Notes: a model not told the origin generated them from the letters alone. 62,400 nt of DNA from Mycoplasmatales bacterium (GCA_014238055.1 JABABV010000004.1:1-62400), one strand, 5' to 3'. Shown: positions 3,131 through 38,477, counted from the stretch's first letter. A program made the numbers and translations.

Positions 3131-3454
3131 ATGTCAAAAAAATTAAAAATGTGAATCGTTTCGATAGCAGTTGTTGCGATATTTTTATTAACAACTGCAG
3201 GATTAATTTATCAAATGCAATGAACTAATTTCAAAAAAGATTTTGCAACTTCTATCAAAGCAGTTACAGAAAAGTATAACGAACAACAACCTAATGGTAT
3301 GAGCTATAAATTAAAGAGCACTACTCACCATACTGTTATTTATACAATTACAACTATTGAGCCAATAACATCTAAAAAAATAGTTAATGATATATCAGAA
3401 CATTATACTTGAGGTAAAAGATTTGATATTGATAAAATAACAGGTAAGTTGTAA
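3131..3454 (+). CDS. Small membrane-anchored protein, paralogue A
   Basis: 107 residues read with UGA as Trp (two near the N-terminus and one late). A short basic start (MSKKLKMW) leads into one hydrophobic segment at about residues 8-28, then a polar ~80-residue domain predicted to lie outside the membrane. It aligns end to end with the next gene: both share Y-Q-x-x-W, FKKDFA and ISEHY. A GGAG-containing ribosome-binding site precedes the ATG. There is no lipobox Cys. The family is not recognised; the pair arose by duplication. Confidence 0.7.
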
Positions 3455-3510
3455 AGCTACTTAACTAAAACTAAGACTACAAAAGGGTAATCTTTAGTTA
3501 ATCGATTATA

Positions 3511-3546
3511 AAAATAATTAAATTTATCGTTTAATTATTTTTTATT
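3511..3546 (+). terminator. Hairpin terminator between the paralogues
   Basis: AAAATAATTAAA (3511-3522) pairs perfectly with 3530-3541 around a 7-base loop and ends in a T-run. A TATAAT-like -10 (about 3551-3556) follows, so the second paralogue is probably transcribed separately. Confidence 0.65.
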
Positions 3547-3600
3547 TGCTGTATAATCGCACTTATAAAAAGAAAATAAAAAAACTAGGAGTATTAAAAA

Positions 3601-3909
3601 ATGTTAAACAAAATGTCAAAAACATTAAAAATATCAATCGCAGCTGGATTAGCAGCAGTAATTTTATTAATTGCTTTATTAGGAATCGTTTATCAAGTAA
3701 AATGAAGTAGTTTTAAAAAAGACTTTGCTTCAAATATGTCGGAGTTAAAAAAAGAAGCAGATTCAGTTTCTGAAGGATCATTCACTTATAAATTAAAAAA
3801 CACTAAAGGACACACTGTAACATATACAACAACAGTTATGGGAATCTCTTCTGAAATTTCAGAACATTATAGTTTTGCTAAAAAATTTGATTCTAAAAAA
3901 GCAAATTAG
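3601..3909 (+). CDS. Small membrane-anchored protein, paralogue B
   Basis: 102 residues, a paralogue of the gene 146 bases upstream. It starts MLNKMSKTLKIS and has one strongly hydrophobic segment at about residues 11-32, followed by W-SSFKKDFAS and a polar tail ending ISEHYSFAKKFDSKKAN. It lacks a lipobox, so it should be anchored by an uncleaved N-terminal helix. A promoter-like TATAAT near 3551, AGGAG before the ATG and its own terminator suggest a one-gene transcript. Function unknown. Confidence 0.7.
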
Positions 3910-6349: not shown

Positions 6350-8242
6350 ATGATAAATAAAAAATTCTGAAAGACTATTTTATTTTCGACTAGCATTTTA
6401 AGTGTAACTGTTGCTACCGCATTAGTTAGTTGTGGTCATAAAAATACTGGTCCCGATGATGAAGATATATGAAATAAATTCAAAGCTGATGCTGCTAAAG
6501 AAACGATATATAATATAGTAGCATCTGATCCGCCAAAGATATGAGAAGGACTTACTGATTTTGAATTTATTCAAAAGCCAGTTGCTAATAATATATTTCA
6601 TTGACTAACTGCCGTTGTTCGTGAAAAAGCACAAAATAACGACGCAACTTTTCAAGTTAATTATGACAAAGGTGAAACTTACAATAAAAGCCTTTGAAAA
6701 TGTGAGTTTGAACCGATAAATCCTGATTCTGGTTGAATCTTTTTCAAAAAAGAAGCGATTAATGAAACAGTTGAAAACATTGCAGCTGCTAATACTCCAG
6801 AAATATGGAAAGGTGAAAGCGGTTTTACTCCTAAGGGTGATCCAATTGTTAACGAATCATATCGTACGATAACGAGAACAGTGTCTCTACACAAATTAAA
6901 TGATGAAGCAACTTTTACGATTTCTTATAAACGATTAACTGATTATAGTTATAAAAATTGAGTCTGCACGAGACAACCACACGATGACCAGTGAAATGCT
7001 TTTAAAGCTAAAGCAATTAAAGAAACAGCTAAAAATATTGTCGCTGCTGATACACCAACAATATGAAAAGGTTTTAGTAATTTTCAATTCACTAATAAAG
7101 ATAAACCATTTGTTGTAGATGATACTAATAACACAATTACAGCAGAAATATTATCTACTGATGCAGGTAAAACAGCAACATTTTCAATAAAATATATTAA
7201 AGCTGGAGTTTATGCTTCTAAAAATTGAAAATGCGTTGTTCAACCTAAAAAACCTTTCGTTCCTAGTGGATTTGGTAAATTTAAATCAACACCTTATATT
7301 AATATTGAAAATCTTAATAGTACTGTAAATCCAATATCACCTAATTTAATTTACAATTCTTTTGGAGTTCACCAACTTATTATCATGGGGGCTAATGTAT
7401 ATAATTTCAACGGCGTTAAAACTCTTGGTTGAAATTCTTATACACCATTAACATCAAGAACTTCAAAAGAAGCAACTTGAATTTATAAATATGAAGCATT
7501 AGGTGGCCGTATCGGAATTTCTTTTGGAGGAATCTTAGGAGATAAAAATAATACTGCTCCATGAGATACTTTAAATGCCACAGCTATGTCAAAAGAATTT
7601 ATCGATGTCGCAGTTAGATTATACGATATGGAAGTTCTTGATTTCGATATCGAACCAGGTCACGATTTCAACCTTGCTAAAATGAACATTCTAGTAGATG
7701 GAATTAATAAAACTACTGATGCGCTTCCGCATTTAGAAGTTAGTTTAACGATATCATCTGGTCCGATGACAGCTGGTATTAATTTTTGAGGTAGTTATAT
7801 CGATCATTCAAGAACAGCAATCCCAGCGTTTAAAAGATTGAAAAAAGTACCAATTATAAATCCGATGGTATTTGATTTTGGAACATCTTTCATTCCTTTT
7901 AGACCGAATTATTTAACTTTGATTAAAAATACTATTAGCCAAACGAGTACTTACTTTTCAAAAATCTATAATATTAATGTCCAAACTTTCTTCTCTAACC
8001 ATTTAGAAGCAACAACGATGATCGGTCGTTCAGATCAAGGTCATAATTCAGAAATGTTAGATCTTCCATCAGCTACTAATTTAGCTAAATATTGTCGTAC
8101 TCATGCTTTATTGAGATTGTCATACTGAGATATTAACCGTGACTTCCCCGGACCTTACAATCCTGTTTCTGGAAGTAATAACGGAACTAATAATCCGGCT
8201 GGGTCTTATTCAAAAGTTAACGTTAAATATTTTGAAAACTAA
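6350..8242 (+). CDS. GH18 chitinase-like lipoprotein, copy 1 (three modules)
   Basis: 630 residues. The signal peptide ends in the lipobox LVSC with Cys28 for lipid anchoring. Three ~80-residue modules follow (about 42-125, 125-212, 215-300), each with ETAxNIVAA, P-x-x-W and a closing NWxC-x-QP. The C-terminal ~320 residues match the bacterial ChiA-like GH18 subfamily in order: GGRIGISFGG, then LDFDIEPG with candidate acid Glu435, LTISSGP, INPMVFDFG, TTMIGRSDQ and SYWDINRDFPG. DxDxE is intact; the first Asp of the classic DxxDxDxE is not. Likely role: surface-bound hydrolysis or binding of a GlcNAc polymer such as chitin. Substrate and activity are inferred, and the modules match no family I know. 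Confidence 0.8.
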
Positions 8243-8282
8243 TTATTAAAACTATTAATTATAATTGTTAATATATCGAAAC

Positions 8283-8323
8283 AAAAAAATACTATAACAA
8301 AGATTTGTTAAAGTATTTTTTTT
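8283..8323 (+). terminator. Terminator after GH18 copy 1
   Basis: AAAAAAATACT (8283-8293) pairs with 8312-8322; TAACAAA and TTTGTTA form an inner stem. It ends in T's. A near-identical copy follows GH18 copy 2. Confidence 0.75.
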
Positions 8324-8490
8324 ATTTTCCAATTCGTAATTATTTAAAAAATCCTTTAAATAACTGATAATTGTAAAATATCGATATATTTATTATAATT
8401 AATCTACGTCTATATTGATAAAAAAATAATTTATATATTAAATATGATTACAAATAATTATTATACAACCGTTGAAAGGTTCGTTATTTT

Positions 8491-9909
8491 ATGAAAAATA
8501 TGAAAATTTTAAAAACACTTTTAATGTTTACAAGCGTTTTAGGCGTCACTACTACGACAACATTATTTAATTATAAACATAAAGAAAATCCGAAATTAAC
8601 TCAATCGTTAAATATGCCTAACGTTAAAATTAAGCAAGAAGTAATTAATCAAAGTTGAGCTGCTTTTAAAACTAGTGCAGTTCAAGAAACAGCTAATAAT
8701 ATCGTTGCTGCAGACACACCAATATTATGAAAAAATTTTAATGTTTTTTCATTACCAAAAGCGCCAGTAGCCCACGATGATTCTCTTACAATTAAAGCTA
8801 TCATTCTTTCGCCCGACTCAGGTCGAGCAGCGACTTTTGTAATTACTTATACTTTAGGAAAAAGCTACAATTCTAAAGATTGAAAATGTTTTTATCAACC
8901 GAAAAAACAATTCGTTCCTAGTGGATTTGGTAAATTTAAATCAACGCCTTATATTAACATCGAAATCGTTAATAGTGCTATAAATCCAATATCACCTGAT
9001 TTAATTTATAATAGTTTTGGAGTCCACCAACTTATTATCATGGGAGCTAATGTATATAAGTTCAATGGTAAAAAAACTCTTGGTTGAAACGCAAAAACAC
9101 CTTTAACTTTAAGAACTTCAAAAGAAGCAACTTGAATTTATAAATATGAAGCATTAGGTGGTCGTATTGGAATTTCTTTTGGAGGAATCTTAGGCGACAA
9201 AAATAATACTGCGCCATGAGATACTTTAAATGCTACAAATATGTCGCGAGAATTTATTGATATTGCAGTGAAATTATATTGTATGGAAGATCTTGATTTC
9301 GATATCGAACCAGGTAACGATTTTAACCTCGCTAAAATGAATATTTTAGTCGATGGAATTAATAAAACTACTGATGCGCTTCCCCATTTAGATGTTAGTT
9401 TAACGATGTCATCTGGTCCGATGACAGCTGGTATTAATTTTTGAGGTAGTTATGTCGATCATTCAAGAACAGCGATTCCAGCGTTTAAAAGATTGAAAAA
9501 AGTACCAATTATAAATCCAATGGTATTTGATTTTGGAACTGATTATCTTCCTTTTAGACCAACTTATCTCCAAATGATCAAAGATACACTTAGTCAAACT
9601 GCCGATTACTTTTTAAAAGTTTTTTCAAAAATTCAAAAAATGAAACCACAATTTTTCTTCTCAAATTATTTAGAAGCAACAACGATGATCGGTCGTTCAG
9701 ATCAAGGTCATAATTCAGAAATGTTAGATATCTCATCAGCTACTAATTTAGCAAAATATTGTCACAATCATTCATTATTAAGAATGTCATATTGAGATAT
9801 TAACCGTGATTTTCCTGGAAAGCACAATCCTGCTTCAGGAACTAATAACGGAACTAAAAATCCGGCCGGGTCTTATTCAAAAGTTAACGTTAAATATTTT
9901 GAAAACTAA
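8491..9909 (+). CDS. GH18 chitinase-like exported protein, copy 2 (one module, no lipobox)
   Basis: 472 residues. The start MKNMKILKTLLMFTSVLG resembles the copy 1 signal sequence, but where the lipobox should be (residues 27-28) it reads N-Y followed by KHK. Without a Cys it cannot be lipidated and is probably a membrane-anchored or released protein. One NIVAA…NWKC module (about 54-140) precedes the GH18 domain, which has LDFDIEPG with Glu273, LTMSSGP, INPMVFDFG, TTMIGRSDQ and SYWDINRDFPG. The catalytic half is nearly identical to copy 1, as is the flanking DNA, so the duplication is recent. Confidence 0.78.
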
Positions 9910-9950
9910 TTATTAAAACTATTAATTATGATTGTTAATACATTAAAAAT

Positions 9951-9990
9951 AAAAAAATACTCTAACAAAGACTTGTTGAAGTATTTTTTT
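9951..9990 (+). terminator. Terminator after GH18 copy 2
   Basis: AAAAAAATACT (9951-9961) pairs with AGTATTTTTTT (9980-9990), with an inner AACAA stem. It is homologous to the terminator at 8283, so the duplicated unit included the 3' flank. Confidence 0.75.
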
Positions 9991-10158
9991 ATTTTCTAAT
10001 CTTTTATTATTTTAAAAAAGACTTTAAATATTTGATAATTGTAAAATATTTATATATTTATTATAATTAATCTGTATCTACATTTATAAAAAAATAATTT
10101 ATATATTAAAAATGATGAAAAATAACCACTATATAGCAATAGGAAGGTCTGTTATTTT

Positions 10159-11577
10159 ATGAAAAATAAAAAAATTTTAAAAACACTTTTAATGTCTACG
10201 AGTATTTTAAGTGTAACAACTACAACAGCATTAGTTAATTACAAGCATAAAGAAAATCCAAAATTAAATCAATTATTAAATGATCCAAATATTGAAATGA
10301 AGCAAGGTGCAATTGATCGAAGCTGAAATGCTTTTAAAACTAGCGCAGTTCAAGAAACAGCTAAAAATATTGTCGCTGCAGACACACCAATATTATGAAA
10401 AAATTTAAATGGTTTTTTATTACTAAAAGCGCCAATAGTCTACGATAATACTCATACGATTGAAGCAATCATTCTTTCTCCCGATTCTGCTCGAACAGCC
10501 ACTTTCACAACTACTTACACTAAAAGAAAAGTTTACCATTCTAAAAATTGAAAATGTGTTGATCAACCGAAAGAACAATTCGTTCCTAGCGGATTAGGAA
10601 AAGGTAAATCAGTGCCATACGTTAATATTGAAGATCTTAATAATCACAACCATCCATTAACACCTTCGATGGTTTATGAATATTTCGGAGTTCACCAAGT
10701 TATTATAATGGGTGCTAACGTATATAAGTTCGATGGTAAAAAAACTCTTGGTTGAAATGCAAAAACACCTTTAACTTTAAGAACTTCAAAAGAAGCAACT
10801 TGAATTTATCGATATGAAGCATTAGGTGGCCGTATCGGAATTTCTTTTGGAGGAATCTTAGGTTCTAAGCAAAATAGCACTCCTTGAAATACTCTAGATG
10901 CTGATAGTATGTATAGAGAATTTTCTAATATTGCCGTGAAATTATACAATATGGAAGATCTTGATTTTGATATTGAACCAGGTTGTGATTTTAACCTTGG
11001 TAGAATGAAAACTTTAGTCGCTGGAATCAATGAAATGACCGACCACTTTCCAAAGTTAGATGTTAGTTTAACATTATCTTCTGGTCCAAGAACACTTGGT
11101 ATTAACTTTTGAGGTAATGTTCTTGATCATTCAAGAACAGCAATCCCAGCTTTTAAACAATTACATAAAGTACCAATTATAAATCCAATGGTATTTGATT
11201 TCGGAACTGATTATATTCCTTTGAGACCGACGTATTTAGATTTAATTAAAGATACTCTTAGTCAAACTACTACTTATTTTGCAAATGTTTTTTCAAAAAT
11301 TCAAAAAATGAAACCACAATATTTCTTCTCAAATCATATAGAAGCAACTACAATGATTGGTCGCTCTGATCAAGGTAATAATACAGAAATGCTTGGTAAA
11401 CAAGCATCTATGAATTTAGCTAAATATTGTAAGCTTCATAAATTATTTAGAATGTCATTTTGAGATATTAATCGCGATTTTCCTGGTAAATACAGTCCTG
11501 TTTCAGGTGATAATAACGGAACTGAAAATTATGAAGGAACTTATTCACAAATGAACGTTAATTATTTTGAAAAATAA
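10159..11577 (+). CDS. GH18 chitinase-like exported protein, copy 3 (one module, no lipobox)
   Basis: 472 residues, the same architecture as copy 2: a signal-like N-terminus (…SVTTTTALVNYKHK) in which the lipobox Ser-Cys is Asn-Tyr, one module, then GH18 with LDFDIEPG (Glu273), LTLSSGP, INPMVFDFG, TTMIGRSDQ and SFWDINRDFPG. It is more diverged than copies 1 and 2 in the central region. The upstream ~150 bases resemble those before copy 2. No terminator separates it from copy 4, 75 bases downstream, so the two may be co-transcribed. Confidence 0.78.
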
Positions 11578-11652
11578 AATGTTTAAAGATTAAATAGATT
11601 TATAATTAATGTATTTAATTTTGAAATTATTCTTAGAAAGAGTTGTCATTTT

Positions 11653-13272
11653 ATGAAAAATAAAAAATTCTGAAAAATTATTTTAATGTCTACTAGTATT
11701 TTAAGTGTAACAACGACAACAGCATTAGTTAGTTGTGGCCGTAAAACACCGACGCAATCATGAAATAGTTTTAAAACTAAAGCAATGCAAGAAACTGCTG
11801 ATAAAATAGTTTTGGCAAAACCACCAAAATCATGAGTTGGCGATAATAAAATTACTTTTAGTTTTATTTCTAGTCCTGTAATCGATGAAAAAGATCATAC
11901 GATAGCAAGAACGATCGTGTCTTCAAAATTCAACACTCAAACAATTTTTAAAATCGATTACAAAAAAGGAACTACTTATAATTATAAAAATTGAAGTTAC
12001 AACGTTAACCCACATCTAGATCAAGCTTGAGAGACTTTTCAAACTAGCGCTACTAAAGAAACAGCTAAGAATATCGTCGCTGCTAATCTTCCAGACGCTT
12101 GAAAAAGTCTTGATGATTTTGAGATAAGTAATTCAGCAACAGTAGATCATAACGGTTATACGATCACTGTTATCATAAAATCAAAAAGTGAAATTGGTAA
12201 AGAAGCAACATTTTCAATAACATATATTAAAGGTTCGATATACGATGCTAAAAATTGAAAATGCATTATGCAACCTAAAACTGATTTTATTCCTACTGGA
12301 TTTGGAAAATCTAAATCAGCACCATATCTTTATATTGAAGTAATAGATAACGATACTAACCCAATCACGCCATCGATGATTTATAACGATTTTGGCGTTC
12401 ATCAAGTTATTTTAATGGGCGCTAATGTTTATGATTTTTACGGTAAAAAAGCTCTAGGTTGAAATTCACATACACCATTACTATCGAGAGTTTCAAAAGA
12501 AGCAATCTGAATTTATAAATATGAAGCATTAGGTGGCCATATCGGAATTTCTTTTGGAGGAATTTTAGGTGATTTAAATAATACTTCACCTTGAGACACA
12601 CAAACTCCAACTGAGATGGCTGCTGCCTTTTCTGATATAGCGATTAAACAATATAATATGGAAGATCTTGATTTCGATATCGAACCAGGTCACAATTACG
12701 ATCTTGCTAAAATGAATCTTTTAGTTCAAGCTATCAATAAAATGACGACTTCATACACAACGTTAGACGTTAGTTTAACGATTTCTTGCGCTCCAACGAT
12801 AAATGGAGTTCCTTTTTGAGGTAGTGATATTGATTTTTCAAAAACTGGTATCCCAGCTTTTAAAAAACTCAACAAAACACCAATAATGAATCCGATGGTT
12901 TTTGACTTTGAAAAAGATATGGCCCCAGGCGATCATGACTATATTGGATTAATTAAACAAACTATTACAGAAACAAATACGTATTTTGCAAATATTTTTA
13001 ATGTTGATAGTAAACAATTTATGAAAAACAATTTATCAGTCACATCAATGATTGGTCGTTCTGATCATAAAAAGTATTCTGAAGTATTAACTTTGGACTA
13101 TGCAATTAAACTAGCACAATATTGTAAGACAAATAATATTTTAAGAATGTCATTTTGAAATATTAATCGTGACTTCCCCGGACCTTACGATCCCACTACA
13201 AATATTAATAGTGGAACTGATAATCTAGCGGGAGCTTATTCAAAAGTTAACGTTAAATATTTTGAAAATTAA
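11653..13272 (+). CDS. GH18 chitinase-like lipoprotein, copy 4 (two modules)
   Basis: 539 residues. The signal peptide ends ALVSC with Cys28 of an intact lipobox, so it is a surface lipoprotein like copy 1. Two modules (about 35-118 and 125-212) end NWSY and NWKC. The GH18 domain has GGHIGISFGG, LDFDIEPG with Glu344, LTISCAP, MNPMVFDFE, TSMIGRSDH and SFWNINRDFPG. It is the most diverged of the tandem four in the loop after MVFDF. TAA at 13270-13272 is followed by a strong palindromic terminator. Confidence 0.78.
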
Positions 13273-17427: not shown

Positions 17428-19356
17428 ATGCTGTTTAATATTTTTATTGGTATTACTTTAATTATTGTTTTATTAATCATTTGATTTGCTCTTGGGAGAT
17501 TGTTCCAAGAGCGTTTTGCTTTATTGAGAACGAATTATTTAATTACAATTCCACTAGGTTTTAGTTTTTATTTTGCGGTTATGTGAATCGTTAGTTTACC
17601 TTTTGTATTTTTAGGAATAGATGCTTTATCACTCTTTATTACGTTAATTTTATTTAACGGTTTGCTCGTATTTTTTGTTATCTTAAATTATAAATATTGA
17701 TTTCATAAATATATTAAATTTAAAGTTTTATTGTTTGCTTTGATCGTTGCTTCTTGGTTGATCATAACTTACTATATTTTATGACCAACTCAAAATAATT
17801 ATCAAACTGAAGATTTTATTACGATCATTAATCGCAATGCTGATAGTAATAATTTATGAATCACGTTCAATAGTAGTGTTTTTGAAAAATTCAATACTTA
17901 TTATTTATGAATTGCTTTCGTAGTTAGAATTTTTGGTATGAATATTGCTTTTTTAACGAATTGAATTTTAACTATTTTAATGTTAATAGTTTTTAGTTTT
18001 TTCGTTTTAGGATCGATTTCAATTACTTTTAAAAGTAAAATAACGACTAATTTAATTACCGTCTTTGCGATCTTTATATTGTGGCATTTCGTCTTAAATA
18101 TTTTTCCATGAACTGGAATATTTATTTGTTTTTGTATGTTTATGTTGATTATTGCTTTATATATTAGATATTTAAATTCTAGTTATCGTAATCGCTATTA
18201 TTTAATTATTGCTTCGATTATGTCAGTTACAGCATTTAATTTTTCGTGAAAAGTTAGTTATTTAAATTTAATTATTTTTTACATCGTCTTTGCTTTAATC
18301 GTTTTTAAATATCGTAAAAATTTTACAATTGATTTCATTTTAACTTTTTTCTTACCGTGTTTTAGTTTAGCTTTTATTGCTTTTAACTTTAGTACTTTAT
18401 TTGGCTGAGTTGTTTTAATTTTCTATTTTTGAATTATGTTCTATACGATTTTCCATTTTTATAAAAATAGTAGTTTCTTTTTAAAAATCGAAAAATGAGT
18501 TTACGAAGATCGCATTTTAGTGTTTACTTTATTGCCGATATTTTTTGCTATTTCAAGTAGTTATTTATTAATTATCGAAAGAAGTCATTATCGTGATTAT
18601 TTAAATGTTGATTATTTTTTCCATTTTCATAGTCATATTCTAAATATGATGATATTTGTCGTTACATGAGGGATCGAAATCGGAATTACGGTTTATATTA
18701 TTTATAAATACGTCCACAAAAATTGAATTTGAGATAAAACTAATATTTTAATTATGTGAATTTGAATTAGTATATTATTAATAGTGAATCCTTTATTTGA
18801 AATTTTAACTAAAAAATATTTAATGCCAAATTATAATTATCAAATTATTATTTGAATCGCAATAATTCCATTATTATTATTAATTATTAAATGGTTATCA
18901 TTAATTAAAAAATTTAATTGAGGGTTTTCAACTTTAGCAACCGCCATCGTTTTTTCAACAACGATTGCTCTTAACGTTCCTAATTTGCATTATAGTAATT
19001 ACGATCCTTATACGCTAGTTAATAAAGGGGCTCACGATATATCGGATCAGATGGACGAATATATAATTGATCATAAATTAGGTTCGATCAATTATATGGG
19101 TGATTATGAATGAATTAACGTTTATTTTAAAAATGGTAATTTGATCAATAACTCTGATTCGCAGTTTATTAATAATATTGCGATTAACAAATTAAATGTT
19201 AATGATTTTAAAAATGCTATCGATCGTAGTGTTCGTTTAATTAAAGATCACTTAAATTGAGTCGTTAAATTAAGAACTAATATTGACAGTTCTATAAAAA
19301 TTAATTACAACGTTATTTTATATAATGATTTTTATTATGTTTTCAAAGTTGATTAA
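17428..19356 (+). CDS. Large multi-pass membrane protein
   Basis: 642 residues with at least 14 hydrophobic segments over about 1-515, then a ~120-residue polar C-terminal domain containing SDQMDEYIIDHK and MGDYEW. This topology (many helices, short loops, one extracytoplasmic tail) resembles GT-C-type or polysaccharide-export membrane proteins. I see no diagnostic acidic loop motif and do not assign an enzyme. Roughly twenty UGA-Trp codons. It is followed by a terminator; the glycosyltransferase genes beyond 19867 make a role in surface glycan synthesis possible. Confidence 0.7.
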
Positions 19357-19361
19357 ACAAA

Positions 19362-19404
19362 AATAAAAATAAAAACAAATTAATGTTTTTATTTTTATTT
19401 GTAA
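19362..19404. terminator. Bidirectional A/T hairpin terminator
   Basis: AAATAAAAATAAAAAC pairs with GTTTTTATTTTTATTT around an ~8-base loop (about 19362-19403). It lies between the convergent membrane-protein and S1-protein genes and can serve both. Confidence 0.7.
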
Positions 19405-19474
19405 ATATAGTTAATTTTAATTTTAATATGTTTAATTTTTGCCTATGAAATATAAAACTGTTATTTTTTAAAAA

Positions 19475-19708
19475 TTATTTTACGATTTTTAAGCTTATAC
19501 GACCAAGTTTTTTGTCAATGTTAATGATTTGAACTTTAACTTTTTGACCAACTTTTAAAAATTCATTAATATCTTTGATGTACTCATCGCTAATATTTGA
19601 AATATGGATTAAACCATTTTTTTCTACGCCTATGTCAACAAATGCTCCGAAACTAACGATACCAGTTACAGTACCTTCAACAATGCTGTTTAATTCTAAA
19701 TTGTCCAT
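19475..19708 (-). CDS. Stand-alone S1 RNA-binding domain protein
   Basis: 77 residues forming essentially one S1/OB-fold: VEGTVTGIVSFGAFVDIG, then NGLIHISNIS, FLKVGQKVKVQI and GRISLK. Single-S1 proteins of this size (YugI/general stress protein 13-like) bind RNA or associate with ribosomes. AAGGGG lies about 9 bases before the ATG (minus strand). It is one of only four clear minus-strand genes here and is not in an operon. Confidence 0.8.
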   Translation of the reverse strand: MDNLELNSIVEGTVTGIVSFGAFVDIGVEKNGLIHISNISDEYIKDINEFLKVGQKVKVQIINIDKKLGRISLKIVK

Positions 19709-19802
19709 TAAGACCCCTTAATAAGAAATTAATTAATTATACTATATTTATAAAATTATACTAATAAAAATGAATTAAAGCAATACTTTTCAATAAAAAT
19801 TT

Positions 19803-19811
19803 TGTTATAAT
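19803..19811 (+). promoter_or_regulatory. Extended -10 promoter of the glycosyltransferase operon
   Basis: TGTTATAAT lies 56 bases before the ATG at 19867. It drives three tightly packed genes (19867-21908). Confidence 0.5.
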
Positions 19812-19866
19812 AGATAAAGAACTAATTAAATATCTTTTATTAACGACAGAAAGCGTGTTTGAACAA

Positions 19867-20721
19867 ATGCAAAAAATTCCAAAAATTATTCATTATTGTT
19901 GATTTGGTAAAGAAATGCCAGAGCGACTAAAAAAAAATATAGAAACTTGAAAAAAGTTTTTTCCTGAATATGAGATTCGTCTTTGGGGAGAACATAACTT
20001 TAATTTACTAGATAATAAGTATTGTAAAAAGTCTTATGATTTTAAAAAATTTGCTTATGTTTCTGATTATGCTAGATTAAAAATTCTCTATGATCACGGT
20101 GGAGTTTACTTAGACACTGATATGAATGCCAAGTCTAGCTTTGGTCAATGTTTAGAAAGTAGCGATATGACAATCGGCTTTGAACATCAAAAATTAATTG
20201 CTACTGGATTTATTTCGGTAATTCCAAAACATCCATTAATTAAACAATTATTAGATATTTACGAATTGTTTAATTCAGTTGACTATGATGATGTTCCTTT
20301 CTTTATTAATAATGAATTATTTACTTTTTTATTATGTAGTGAATACGGTTTAATATTAAATAATAAATATCAAGAAATAAGTTCTGGTATTAAAGTATAT
20401 CCGATGGAATATTTTAGTTTGCAAGAGCCAACAAATAATACTGTAGTATTACATTTACATGAAGTATCTTGAAAAAAAACGAGTTTAGATATCGTGAAGT
20501 TATTAGAGTTTGTGCGTCGTTATAAAACTCTAACTTGATTACCACTACGTCTCCATCGATTAGTTTATTTTTCAAAGCATCGTAAATTAAATAATGAATT
20601 TAAAAAAAGAATCGGGATCAATCCTGACAAAGTTTTAATTAAAAAAGGTAACAAAGTTAGTAAACGAGCGCTTAAAAAACTTAAAAAAGTTTTAAATAAA
20701 AAAGCAAAGAAGGTGACTTAA
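19867..20721 (+). CDS. DXD-motif sugar transferase (Gly_transf_sug / GT32-like)
   Basis: 284 residues. The start IPKIIHYCWFGKEMPERLKK and the core YVSDYARLKILYDHGGVYLD-TD are hallmarks of the capsule/OCH1-like transferases (PF04488). The DXD (DTD) binds the nucleotide-sugar metal. The C-terminal ~50 residues are strongly basic (KKRIGINPDK…KKGNKVSKRALKK), which may hold the enzyme to the membrane surface. Stop TAA abuts the next ATG, so it is co-translated with the GT2 gene. Substrate unknown; surface polysaccharide or glycolipid is likely. Confidence 0.85.
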
Positions 20722-21438
20722 ATGAAGTTATTAGTTATTATACCAGCCCATAATGAAGAAGAATGTATTTTAAAAACCGTTAATGACTTTAAAAAAGTTA
20801 ATCCTAAAATCGATTATTTAGTTGTCAATGATGGCTCAATCGACAATACTAAAAATATTTTAATTAATAATAAAATAAAACATTTAAATATTCCGATAAA
20901 TATTGGTTTATCAGGAGCCGTTCAAGCTGGAATATATTACGCTTGTGATAAACAATACGATGCTATTTTACAATACGATGGTGACGGCCAACATTTACCA
21001 GAATATGTTAAACCAATGTTAAAGAAAATTGAATCAGGATGCGATGTTGTAATCGGTTCAAGATTCTTAAATAAAAAGAAACCATTTTCTTTAAGAATGA
21101 TGGGTTCTAAATTAATCACTTTAAGTATTTTAATAAGTTGTCGTAAAAAAATTAAAGATCCTACTTCAGGAATGCGTATGTTTTCTACGAGATTACTAAA
21201 AGATTTTAGCAAAAATCGCCCTATTAATTTTGAAGCTGATTTAATTGCTGAATTAATTAGAAGCAATTATGTGATTGAAGAAATTCAAGTTAAGATGATT
21301 GAGCGTAAAACTGGTTCGTCTTATTTTAATATTTTCAATTCTATGTTCTACATGGTTTCTTTAATTTTAACGATTATTTTCATCCAACCATTTTTAAAAA
21401 GTAAAAAAGTAAATTCTAAGAAAGCGAGCGTAAAATAA
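20722..21438 (+). CDS. Glycosyltransferase family 2 (polyprenyl-phosphate or lipid acceptor type)
   Basis: 238 residues. The GT2 A-fold is clear: VIIPAHNEEECI at the N-terminus, VVNDGSIDNT, then YDGDGQH (the DXD metal site) and IGSRF. A hydrophobic C-terminal segment (FYMVSLILTIIFIQPFL) is typical of DPM1-like enzymes that charge polyprenyl phosphate. It starts directly after the upstream stop, and its own stop shares an A with the ATG of a DUF2304 gene. That gene pair recurs in Firmicute glycan clusters. Confidence 0.88.
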   Translation: MKLLVIIPAHNEEECILKTVNDFKKVNPKIDYLVVNDGSIDNTKNILINNKIKHLNIPINIGLSGAVQAGIYYACDKQYDAILQYDGDGQHLPEYVKPMLKKIESGCDVVIGSRFLNKKKPFSLRMMGSKLITLSILISCRKKIKDPTSGMRMFSTRLLKDFSKNRPINFEADLIAELIRSNYVIEEIQVKMIERKTGSSYFNIFNSMFYMVSLILTIIFIQPFLKSKKVNSKKASVK

Positions 21439-35636: not shown

Positions 35637-37031
35637 ATGAAAAGGAAAAAAATATTTAAATTTTTTTTAATAACTAATATCTTAGTTCCGCTAAGCGGCT
35701 CAATTGTTTTGAGTACTGTTAGTTGTGGTCATAAAGATTCAGGTGGTGGAACCGTTCCAGGTGCAACTTGAGATGACTTTAAAACTAATGCCCAAGCAGA
35801 ATCAAAAATTAATATCGTTAAACAAACTAAACCAAATGGGTGAGACGATGCCGTTGATACGCAATTAAAAATTGATAGTTTTACGCCTGATCAAACTAAT
35901 AATAAAATTACAGAAGCAATTATTAGAACCGTAAGTGGTCAAAAAACAAAAGCTATTTTTGAAATTAATTATACTAAAGGTCAAAAATATAATATTAAAG
36001 ATTGAAAATGCGAATCACAACCAATTCCTATTAATGGTGGTGGTTTAGGTTATAGCAAATCAGTACCCTTTTTAGATATAACTAGTACAGTAACAAATAA
36101 GATAACACCAGATAAAGTTTATAAGACTTTTGGAATTCACCAAATCATGGCATCTTTTGCTAATGTTTTTACGATTAATGGTAAAGTAACTATCGGCTGA
36201 ACTGGTAGCGAAAGATTCGATGATAGTACAACTGCAGAAGCTAAATGAGTTTCTCAATATGAAGCATTAGGTGGAAAAGTCGGAATTTCTTTCGGTGGAG
36301 CCGATGCTAGTGGTCATAAGATTACGCCGTGAGATATGATAAAAGATGCTACTACTTTGGCAAATGATATGAAAGTCGCTATTAGTCAATATAAAGCAAA
36401 AGCAATTGATTTTGACATTGAACCTCCTGGTAATTTTGATGCCAAAGAAATGAATACTTTAGTTGCAGCGACTAATATTATTTTAAAAGATAATCCAACA
36501 ATAGATATTAGTCTAACGTTAGCTTCGGTACCGACTGATAAAAATGGTACTAAATTTTGAGGTGGAGTAGCTGATCATTCTTCAACTGGAGTAGCTGCTT
36601 TTAAAAAATTTACTAAAACACCAATAATTAATCCAATGCTATTTGATTTTGGTGCTTATTATATTACTGACCAAAAATTTTATGAACCTGAAATTGAAAA
36701 AACAATCACTCAAACAGCTACTTATTGAGCAAATATTTTTGGTATTGATGAAAGTAATTTTATTAAAAATAATATCGAAGCAACTACAATGATTGGACGA
36801 AGCGATCAAGCTGTTAATGATAAAGGTCATCTTAATCGCGAAGTTTTAACTAAAGCCGCTGCAATTACATTAGCTAAGTTTTGCAAAACTAATCAAGTTT
36901 TTAGAATGGGATTTTGATCTTTAAATCGAGATTTTCCAGGTAAAATATCATATGTATCCCCCAGTAATAATGGAACTGATAATCCAGCAGGAACGTATAG
37001 TAAAGTTAATATTGATAATTTTGAAAAGTAA
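35637..37031 (+). CDS. GH18 chitinase-like lipoprotein, copy 5 (dispersed)
   Basis: 464 residues. The signal peptide ends STVSC with Cys30 as the lipidation site. One module (about 44-137, ending NIKDWKCESQP) precedes a GH18 domain with GGKVGISFGGADA, IDFDIEPPG (Glu262), LTLASVP, INPMLFDFG, TTMIGRSDQ and GFWSLNRDFPG. SLNRD is closer than the array copies to free-living bacterial chitinases, so this may be the least derived copy. It lies 22 kb from the tandem array. The AAGGA-containing leader and a separate terminator make it a single-gene unit. Confidence 0.8.
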
Positions 37032-37289: not shown

Positions 37290-38477
37290 ATGAAAATAAA
37301 AAAAATATTATTTTCATTAATTGCAATTTCGGTACCACTAACAACAGTTTGTTCGGTAGCTGTTAGTTGCACCTATCACGATTATGTAAAAGAATTAAAA
37401 GAATGAACAAATTTCAAAAACGCAGCTAATAAATCTAAAAATATCGATATTATTAACGCTACTAAAGTTAGTTCATGAGCAGGTCTTACGGAATCAGATT
37501 TCGTTCGCACAAACTATAAAGTAGATGAAACTAAAAAAATAATATCTTTAAATATTAATAGAATTTTACCTGGTAATATAGTTCGCCAAGCTAAATTTAA
37601 TATAAAATTTTTAGATGATATTATATACTCAATTAATTCATGAGAATGTATTTCTCAACCAAATGCATTAATTGCCCATTCTTGAGAAGCTTTCAAAACA
37701 TCTGCACTAAGTGCTACATTAAATGCTTTATTTGCACAGTCTAGAGAAGGCGATGTATTATATAATCTGCGATGAAAATACGGTACCAATGATGCTGCTA
37801 ATCTTTGAAGAAATGACGACGAAGCAGAATTCGACATGTTTGGTGCTTTACCAGATCAAGCGAAAAATACTTATCAAGGAATGAATGGAAAACTTACCGT
37901 TGATGAAGACAATAAAACAATAACGGGAATTTTTTGTAAAAATCAGTTTGCTAATCTTTTTGAATCTGATCCTGTTAAAGTTCAAATTCATTATTCACCT
38001 AATCAAGCTTATAATATTTCAGATTGAAAATATAGCGCAATCCCACAATTAGAATCTATAGAAAGATTAAAATGAGAATTTGATAATTTAGTTACAAAAA
38101 CAAAGCAACATATGAATGAAACAATCGCTAATAATTGAATATATTTTCCAGAAAATCCTGGAGATAAAACTGACGCTGAAAAACATGGTGCTAATTTCAA
38201 AATCAAACCTTATTTAGAAGATCATTCATATCCAAATGCTAGAGACTTTGAATATAGAGATTCTAAATTTGATTCCGGAGATGGTGATGATAGTTTATTT
38301 AAAGCAAGCCATTGTGTATCAACTCTAAGAATTAATTTTGTAACGTATAAATCAGGACAGCAGCAAGCTTTATTAACTATGAAATTTTATTCAGAGTATT
38401 ATAATGGAACAAATGAAAACGATGGATTAGAACCTTTTAATTTTATTTGAGGATCAAATGTTAAATTAACAACTTAA
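37290..38477 (+). CDS. Lipoprotein related to the GH18 set but lacking the GH18 domain
   Basis: 395 residues. The signal peptide ends VAVSC (Cys27). Residues about 38-125 form the same module type seen before GH18 domains (WTNFKNAANKSKNIDIINA … SWECISQP). A second, longer block opens with WEAFKTSA (about 131) and ends SDWKYSAIPQ (about 254). A diverged third block (about 262-395) fills the C-terminus. No DxDxE or GH18 core motif is present. It may be a binding or adhesion partner of the GH18 proteins, or an independent surface protein. A GGAGG site precedes the ATG. Confidence 0.7.

Follow-up and report, generated by a model that had tools for sequence, protein, structure and literature searches.

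The described enzyme closest to the glycosidases analyzed here is the chitinase of Pyrococcus furiosus (structures 2dsk, 3a4w, and 3a4x; PF1233, domain B of the Thermococcus type). In Thermococcus, oligomers are made by domain B, an endochitinase, and the dimer is set free by domain A (PMC3575233). A second group on the same GH18 branch comprises Streptomyces exochitinase 1 (9buf) and its relatives in Streptomyces, Myxococcota, and Legionella, which have the motif DFDIE. The domain partners of these enzymes differ from those found in this study: the archaeal chitinase has chitin-binding domains (PMC3575233), and those members examined from Streptomyces olivaceoviridis and Ilumatobacteraceae carry CBM4/9 with fn3, or CBM5/12. 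The proteins described below instead combine an unrelated module with a lipoprotein-type signal.

Mollicutes with putative chitinases have been described before. A 2DSK-type chitinase was already reported in an oyster Mollicutes MAG, which by its description resembles the present genome in being a mollicute with a Pyrococcus-type GH18 enzyme and a predicted GlcNAc PTS (PMC8125052). It is set apart, again by description, by having just one putative chitinase, whose C terminus bears a chitin-binding domain, and by a MAG size of 0.62 Mb (PMC8125052). Further cases are chiA of S. melliferum (PMC3563533), ChiD of S. poulsonii (PMC5874924), and a tsetse Spiroplasma with several putative chitinases and a diacetylchitobiose PTS (PMC12408004). 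Cultured Mesoplasma whartonense has predicted chitin genes and used GlcNAc, with no acidification on chitin (PMC12239587), and shrimp Hepatoplasmataceae have no CAZymes, yet use GlcNAc (PMC9636832).

The window, i.e. the whole stretch of 62,400 nucleotides analyzed here, belongs to the assembly of Mycoplasmatales bacterium GCA_014238055.1 (845 kb in 164 contigs, 96.7% complete). Four consecutive GH18 genes lie on the plus strand at 6350-13272, and a fifth copy is located farther along at 35637-37031. The features are as follows:

6350-8242, plus strand: GH18 gene copy 1, 630 aa; lipoprotein signal (Cys at 6431-6433), three modules, GH18 domain
6458-6721, plus strand: module 1a of copy 1
6722-6985, plus strand: module 1b of copy 1
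6980-7255, plus strand: module 1c of copy 1
7256-8239, plus strand: GH18 domain of copy 1, DFDIE at 7640-7654
8491-9909, plus strand: GH18 gene copy 2, 472 aa; signal without lipobox Cys, module 8641-8910, GH18 domain 8911-9906, DFDIE 9295-9309
10159-11577, plus strand: GH18 gene copy 3, 472 aa; signal without lipobox Cys, module 10312-10575, GH18 domain 10579-11574, DFDIE 10963-10977
11653-13272, plus strand: GH18 gene copy 4, 539 aa; lipoprotein signal, modules 11749-12018 and 12013-12282, GH18 domain 12286-13269, DFDIE 12670-12684
35637-37031, plus strand: GH18 gene copy 5, 464 aa, the most diverged; lipoprotein signal, module 35757-36029, GH18 domain 36030-37028, DFDIE 36408-36422
37290-38477, plus strand: module lipoprotein without GH18 domain, 395 aa, adjoining copy 5; a member of the large non-GH18 module family

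Under code 4, genes 1-4 each form an uninterrupted frame from ATG to TAA, with 8-15 TGA codons that are read as Trp. All five proteins share one layout, in which an N-terminal signal is followed by one to three modules and, at the C terminus, by a domain of about 330 residues. An earlier note on this DNA had described four tandem genes for exported, modular GH18 proteins, and the open code-4 frames, the signals, and phmmer, profile, and Foldseek matches far beyond chance bear this out. It had also given one to three modules of about 80 residues per protein; the counts are 3, 1, 1, 2, and 1 for copies 1-5, at about 85 residues each. The five copies were said to occupy about 8.1 kb, and this figure needs correction to a summed coding length of about 7.75 kb. 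Promoter-like sites were barely above chance level (54 versus 44 in shuffles). Elsewhere in the window, inspection by eye showed, at 3131-3909 and following a UvrA-like gene, two neighbouring paralogs of 107 and 102 aa, both small and membrane-anchored. A large membrane protein, a glycosyltransferase-like protein, and a dolichol-phosphate-mannose-synthase-like protein are consecutive at 17428-21438; judged by eye, these three may serve surface glycan or glycolipid synthesis.

The assignment of the C-terminal domain to GH18 is supported by sequence and by Foldseek. In a phmmer search of solved structures, copy 1 matched the catalytic domain of the P. furiosus chitinase with an E value of 2.5e-13, and a profile of the five copies reached 7e-17 for 2dsk and 2e-12 for Streptomyces exochitinase 1. 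Together with 3a4w and 3a4x, these were the sole significant sequence matches among solved structures, and all are chitinases. The DxDxE motif, claimed to be intact, is present as DFDIE in all five copies. The structures 3a4w and 3a4x are catalytic-site mutants: the Glu of the window sequences stands opposite the Ala of 3a4w and the neighbouring Asp opposite the Ala of 3a4x, and the unmutated 2dsk is identical to the window at both positions of the alignment. SFGG, DFDIE, NPMxFD, and FW/YW, which we take to be the usual GH18 motifs of strands 3, 4, 6, and 8, are likewise kept in every copy. GISFGG varies in one conservative lead residue, and NPM-FDF and the Trp of the last strand are invariant.

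An AF2 model of the domain, built from the five-row alignment, has low local confidence (pTM 0.65, pLDDT 58). With this model, Foldseek placed 3a4x, 3a4w, 2dsk, and 9buf on top (E 4.5e-14 to 3.6e-10, the best about 1e-14 to 1e-13), with runners-up about five orders weaker in E. The TM-scores of 3a4x, 3a4w, and 2dsk (0.63-0.69) support a (beta/alpha)8 barrel in the predicted model, at about 18% identity to the P. furiosus chitinase over the fold alignment. Neither a missing GH18 fold nor a misplaced Glu or Asp, named in the earlier note as grounds against its reading, was found at the alignment level, since 2dsk-type chitinases head the Foldseek matches and both residues align with theirs.

The term ChiA-like holds in the sense of Pyrococcus chitinase domain B and Streptomyces exochitinase, and does not extend to the Pfam model PF00704 (Glyco_hydro_18), proposed as a check in the earlier note, which gave no match at E ≤ 1 for copies 1-4. 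Two Spiroplasma-side relatives likewise gave no match to this model, and four bacterial relatives of the same branch scored 28-40 bits against a cut-off of 29.6. We take the miss to reflect the limited reach of the model and not the bounds of the family. Nothing useful was matched when PF00704 and NCBIfam were used as classifiers of the domain, and no known chitin-binding module was found in the five proteins. Chitin is a putative substrate of these enzymes, and a chitinous host, which the earlier note offered as the reason for the expansion, likewise stays an inference.

In the tree, the five copies form one clade (100/100) and the Spiroplasma-side sequences another (100/100); the two join with weak support (39/61) and on long branches. 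An origin by phage was rejected, as phage records and viral contigs yielded no relatives. The Spiroplasma-side chitinases (ChiA/ChiD; loci L019-L038) belong to the same order and mostly have DFDIE or DLDIE, with one or two matches per genome and without the module of the window. The claim that such genes are rare in mollicutes was overstated, as the GH18 profile matches 15 other genomes of the order (one or two matches each, mostly with DFDIE) and cases have been published (PMC8125052, PMC3563533, PMC5874924, PMC12408004). Five copies are the highest number per genome in the set searched with this profile, which is biased to this genome's own copies. The enzyme type is thus already known in mollicutes; new are the presence of five copies, the mosaic array, a lipobox lost from two of the copies, and the module.

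The GH18 domains of the other copies are 85, 74, 59, and 44% identical to that of copy 2. Purifying selection acts on the copies, with dN/dS between 0.25 and 0.58 for every pair (Nei-Gojobori). Copy 2 is a mosaic, with a module as in copy 3 and a GH18 domain as in copy 1. Its module DNA is 77-87% identical to copy 3 and just 58-75% to copy 1. Over most of the GH18 domain the order reverses, with 83-96% DNA identity to copy 1 against mostly 73-84% to copy 3; stretches near aligned positions 450 and 900-990 depart from this. Such a pattern is the one that gene conversion inside a tandem array gives. The upstream DNA of copies 2 and 3 is also alike.

Export, as claimed in the earlier note, is supported, and copies 1, 4, and 5 have a lipobox-like cysteine after the signal. 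In copies 2 and 3 the cysteine is lost, N-Y-K-H standing in both where S-C-G-H would be, so that not all five are ordinary lipoproteins. A candidate for LspA was found in the genome at 69.9 bits, just under the cut-off of 73.95. Type I signal peptidase was not found in this genome by a search that was positive in 13 of 14 control genomes, an absence that bears on every exported protein without a lipobox. Given this and the lost lipobox, copies 2 and 3 would most simply be held in the membrane by an uncleaved signal; a divergent or unassembled peptidase would alter this reading.

With respect to the fate of the products, nagA (304 bits) and nagB (279 bits) both scored above cut-off and lie together with a PTS EIIBC within about 6 kb (contig C76, 208-214 kb). 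The best model for this EIIBC is the GlcNAc one, at a score below that model's equivalog cut-off. As all three genes are present, GlcNAc is probably usable by this mollicute. The genome encodes six EIIC proteins: besides the GlcNAc-best one, one is glucose-type and four are fructose/mannosylglycerate-type, and a chitobiose-type PTS was the best model for none of them. Family searches of the genome found neither GH20 nor GH3 hexosaminidase. This leaves a gap between dimer and monomer, which would have to be closed by monomer release from the enzymes themselves or by a hexosaminidase of the host. Separately, a GH38-type protein (best model mannosylglycerate hydrolase) is encoded between fructose/mannosylglycerate-type PTS proteins (L094:6239-8806), a possible second sugar-scavenging route.

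Our preferred reading, to which we assign a probability of about 0.68, is that the array represents a lineage-specific expansion of surface GH18 glycosidases of the Pyrococcus domain B/Streptomyces exochitinase type, which are exported, held on module stalks, and feed GlcNAc to the PTS, NagA, and NagB. Each enzyme would be exported by Sec; copies 1, 4, and 5 would be lipidated at the cysteine after the signal, and copies 2 and 3 would be kept in the membrane by the uncleaved signal helix. A stalk of one to three small alpha/beta modules may hold the barrel off the membrane. The barrel would cut beta-1,4-linked GlcNAc chains by substrate-assisted catalysis, with the Glu as the acid and the neighbouring Asp orienting the N-acetyl group. 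Freed GlcNAc would be taken up by the nag-type PTS and passed via NagA and NagB to glycolysis. Against this reading count the gap between dimer and monomer, the lack of a match to any known chitin-binding module, the low local confidence of the GH18 model, and the Mesoplasma result with GlcNAc and chitin (PMC12239587).

The strongest competitor shifts the purpose of cleavage: chitin would be cut mainly for passage through, or attachment to, a chitinous lining of the host (peritrophic matrix, cuticle), and less for nutrition. The same role has been proposed for S. melliferum chiA (PMC3563533), and the lack of a hexosaminidase or chitobiose PTS match leaves the feeding route incomplete. However, the genes for GlcNAc uptake and use favour nutrition, and we regard passage or attachment as the main role as unlikely, the two roles not being exclusive. 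Less probable still is that the five enzymes are endo-beta-N-acetylglucosaminidases, which would cut the chitobiose core of host N-glycans, the food being host or mucus glycoproteins rather than chitin. Endo H and BT1285 do occur among the Foldseek matches (E 6e-5 to 6e-4), and the GH38-type protein beside a fructose/mannosylglycerate-type PTS could use mannose-containing glycans. The Pyrococcus and Streptomyces chitinases are nevertheless better by many orders in both sequence and fold, and no ENGase appeared in the sequence searches.

Beyond the glycosidases, the module was traced across the genome. It is not specific to the chitinases, a point that goes beyond the earlier note: a profile of eight modules found 61 copies in this genome, in at least 44 proteins of the regions fetched, corresponding to about 57 kb of open reading frame or close to 7% of the assembly. 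Most module proteins start with a lipoprotein signal; members are found at 37290-38477 of the window and at loci L068-L083. Among payloads of at least 150 residues without GH18, 24 of 36 belong to one family and the remainder to small families or singletons. In this family of 24, the payload starts with a further module, interrupted by an insertion (hhalign probability 97.8, E 9e-13). These 24 proteins (L068-L081, e.g. L070:4227-5456) are lipoproteins of about 390 residues with a shared C-terminal part that often ends in GG-x-AFNYTW.

The module had no match in 319 other genomes of the order, nor in 394 other genomes drawn from the class, a set that overlaps the former; the relatives and order members searched included no other genome of the same family. 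An AF2 model from 61 rows (pLDDT 95, pTM 0.85) predicts with high confidence two helices and a small sheet, a fold with no match in the PDB (best E 0.85). Trp30, Tyr76, and Trp81 are invariant and may belong either to a core or to a face that binds sugar. Searched against Pfam, the 61 modules gave no match that was both significant and common to the members; DUF4878 was rejected, as a single member matched it, below cut-off. Given its absence from the order and class sets and the lack of a PDB or common Pfam match, the module is most readily understood as a part, specific to this lineage, from which surface lipoproteins are built, the chitinases being one group among them. A broader proposal, which we put forward tentatively and rate as less likely than not, is that the module is a new family with a fold absent from the PDB, which arose or was hugely enlarged in this mollicute lineage. 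It might then act as a universal surface scaffold or, given its conserved Trp and Tyr, as a glycan-binding unit. GH18 and several further C-terminal domains would have been attached to it, and about 7% of the genome would encode a single modular surface system.

That the array mainly provides variable surface antigens or adhesins, with a barrel that binds GlcNAc polymers or host surfaces and for which catalysis is minor, is the least likely of the alternatives: variable module number, lipobox loss in two copies, and mosaic exchange resemble surface-protein variation, and the module is common to about 40 lipoproteins of unknown role, but the catalytic-site motifs are all kept in five of five copies despite 44-85% identity, and dN/dS is below 1 in every pair.

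Taken as surface glycosidases, the five enzymes and the GlcNAc genes suggest a diet of chitin-like sugars from the surroundings of the host. Most of the enzymes that degrade carbohydrates have been lost in mollicutes, and a multiplied surface GH18 points to a niche of GlcNAc polymers. Since these proteins escape the standard Pfam GH18 model, surveys reporting reduced genomes without such enzymes may undercount them. Above all, the new detail of this analysis is the lineage-specific module, which indicates that one small unit can be enough for a minimal genome to vary its surface.
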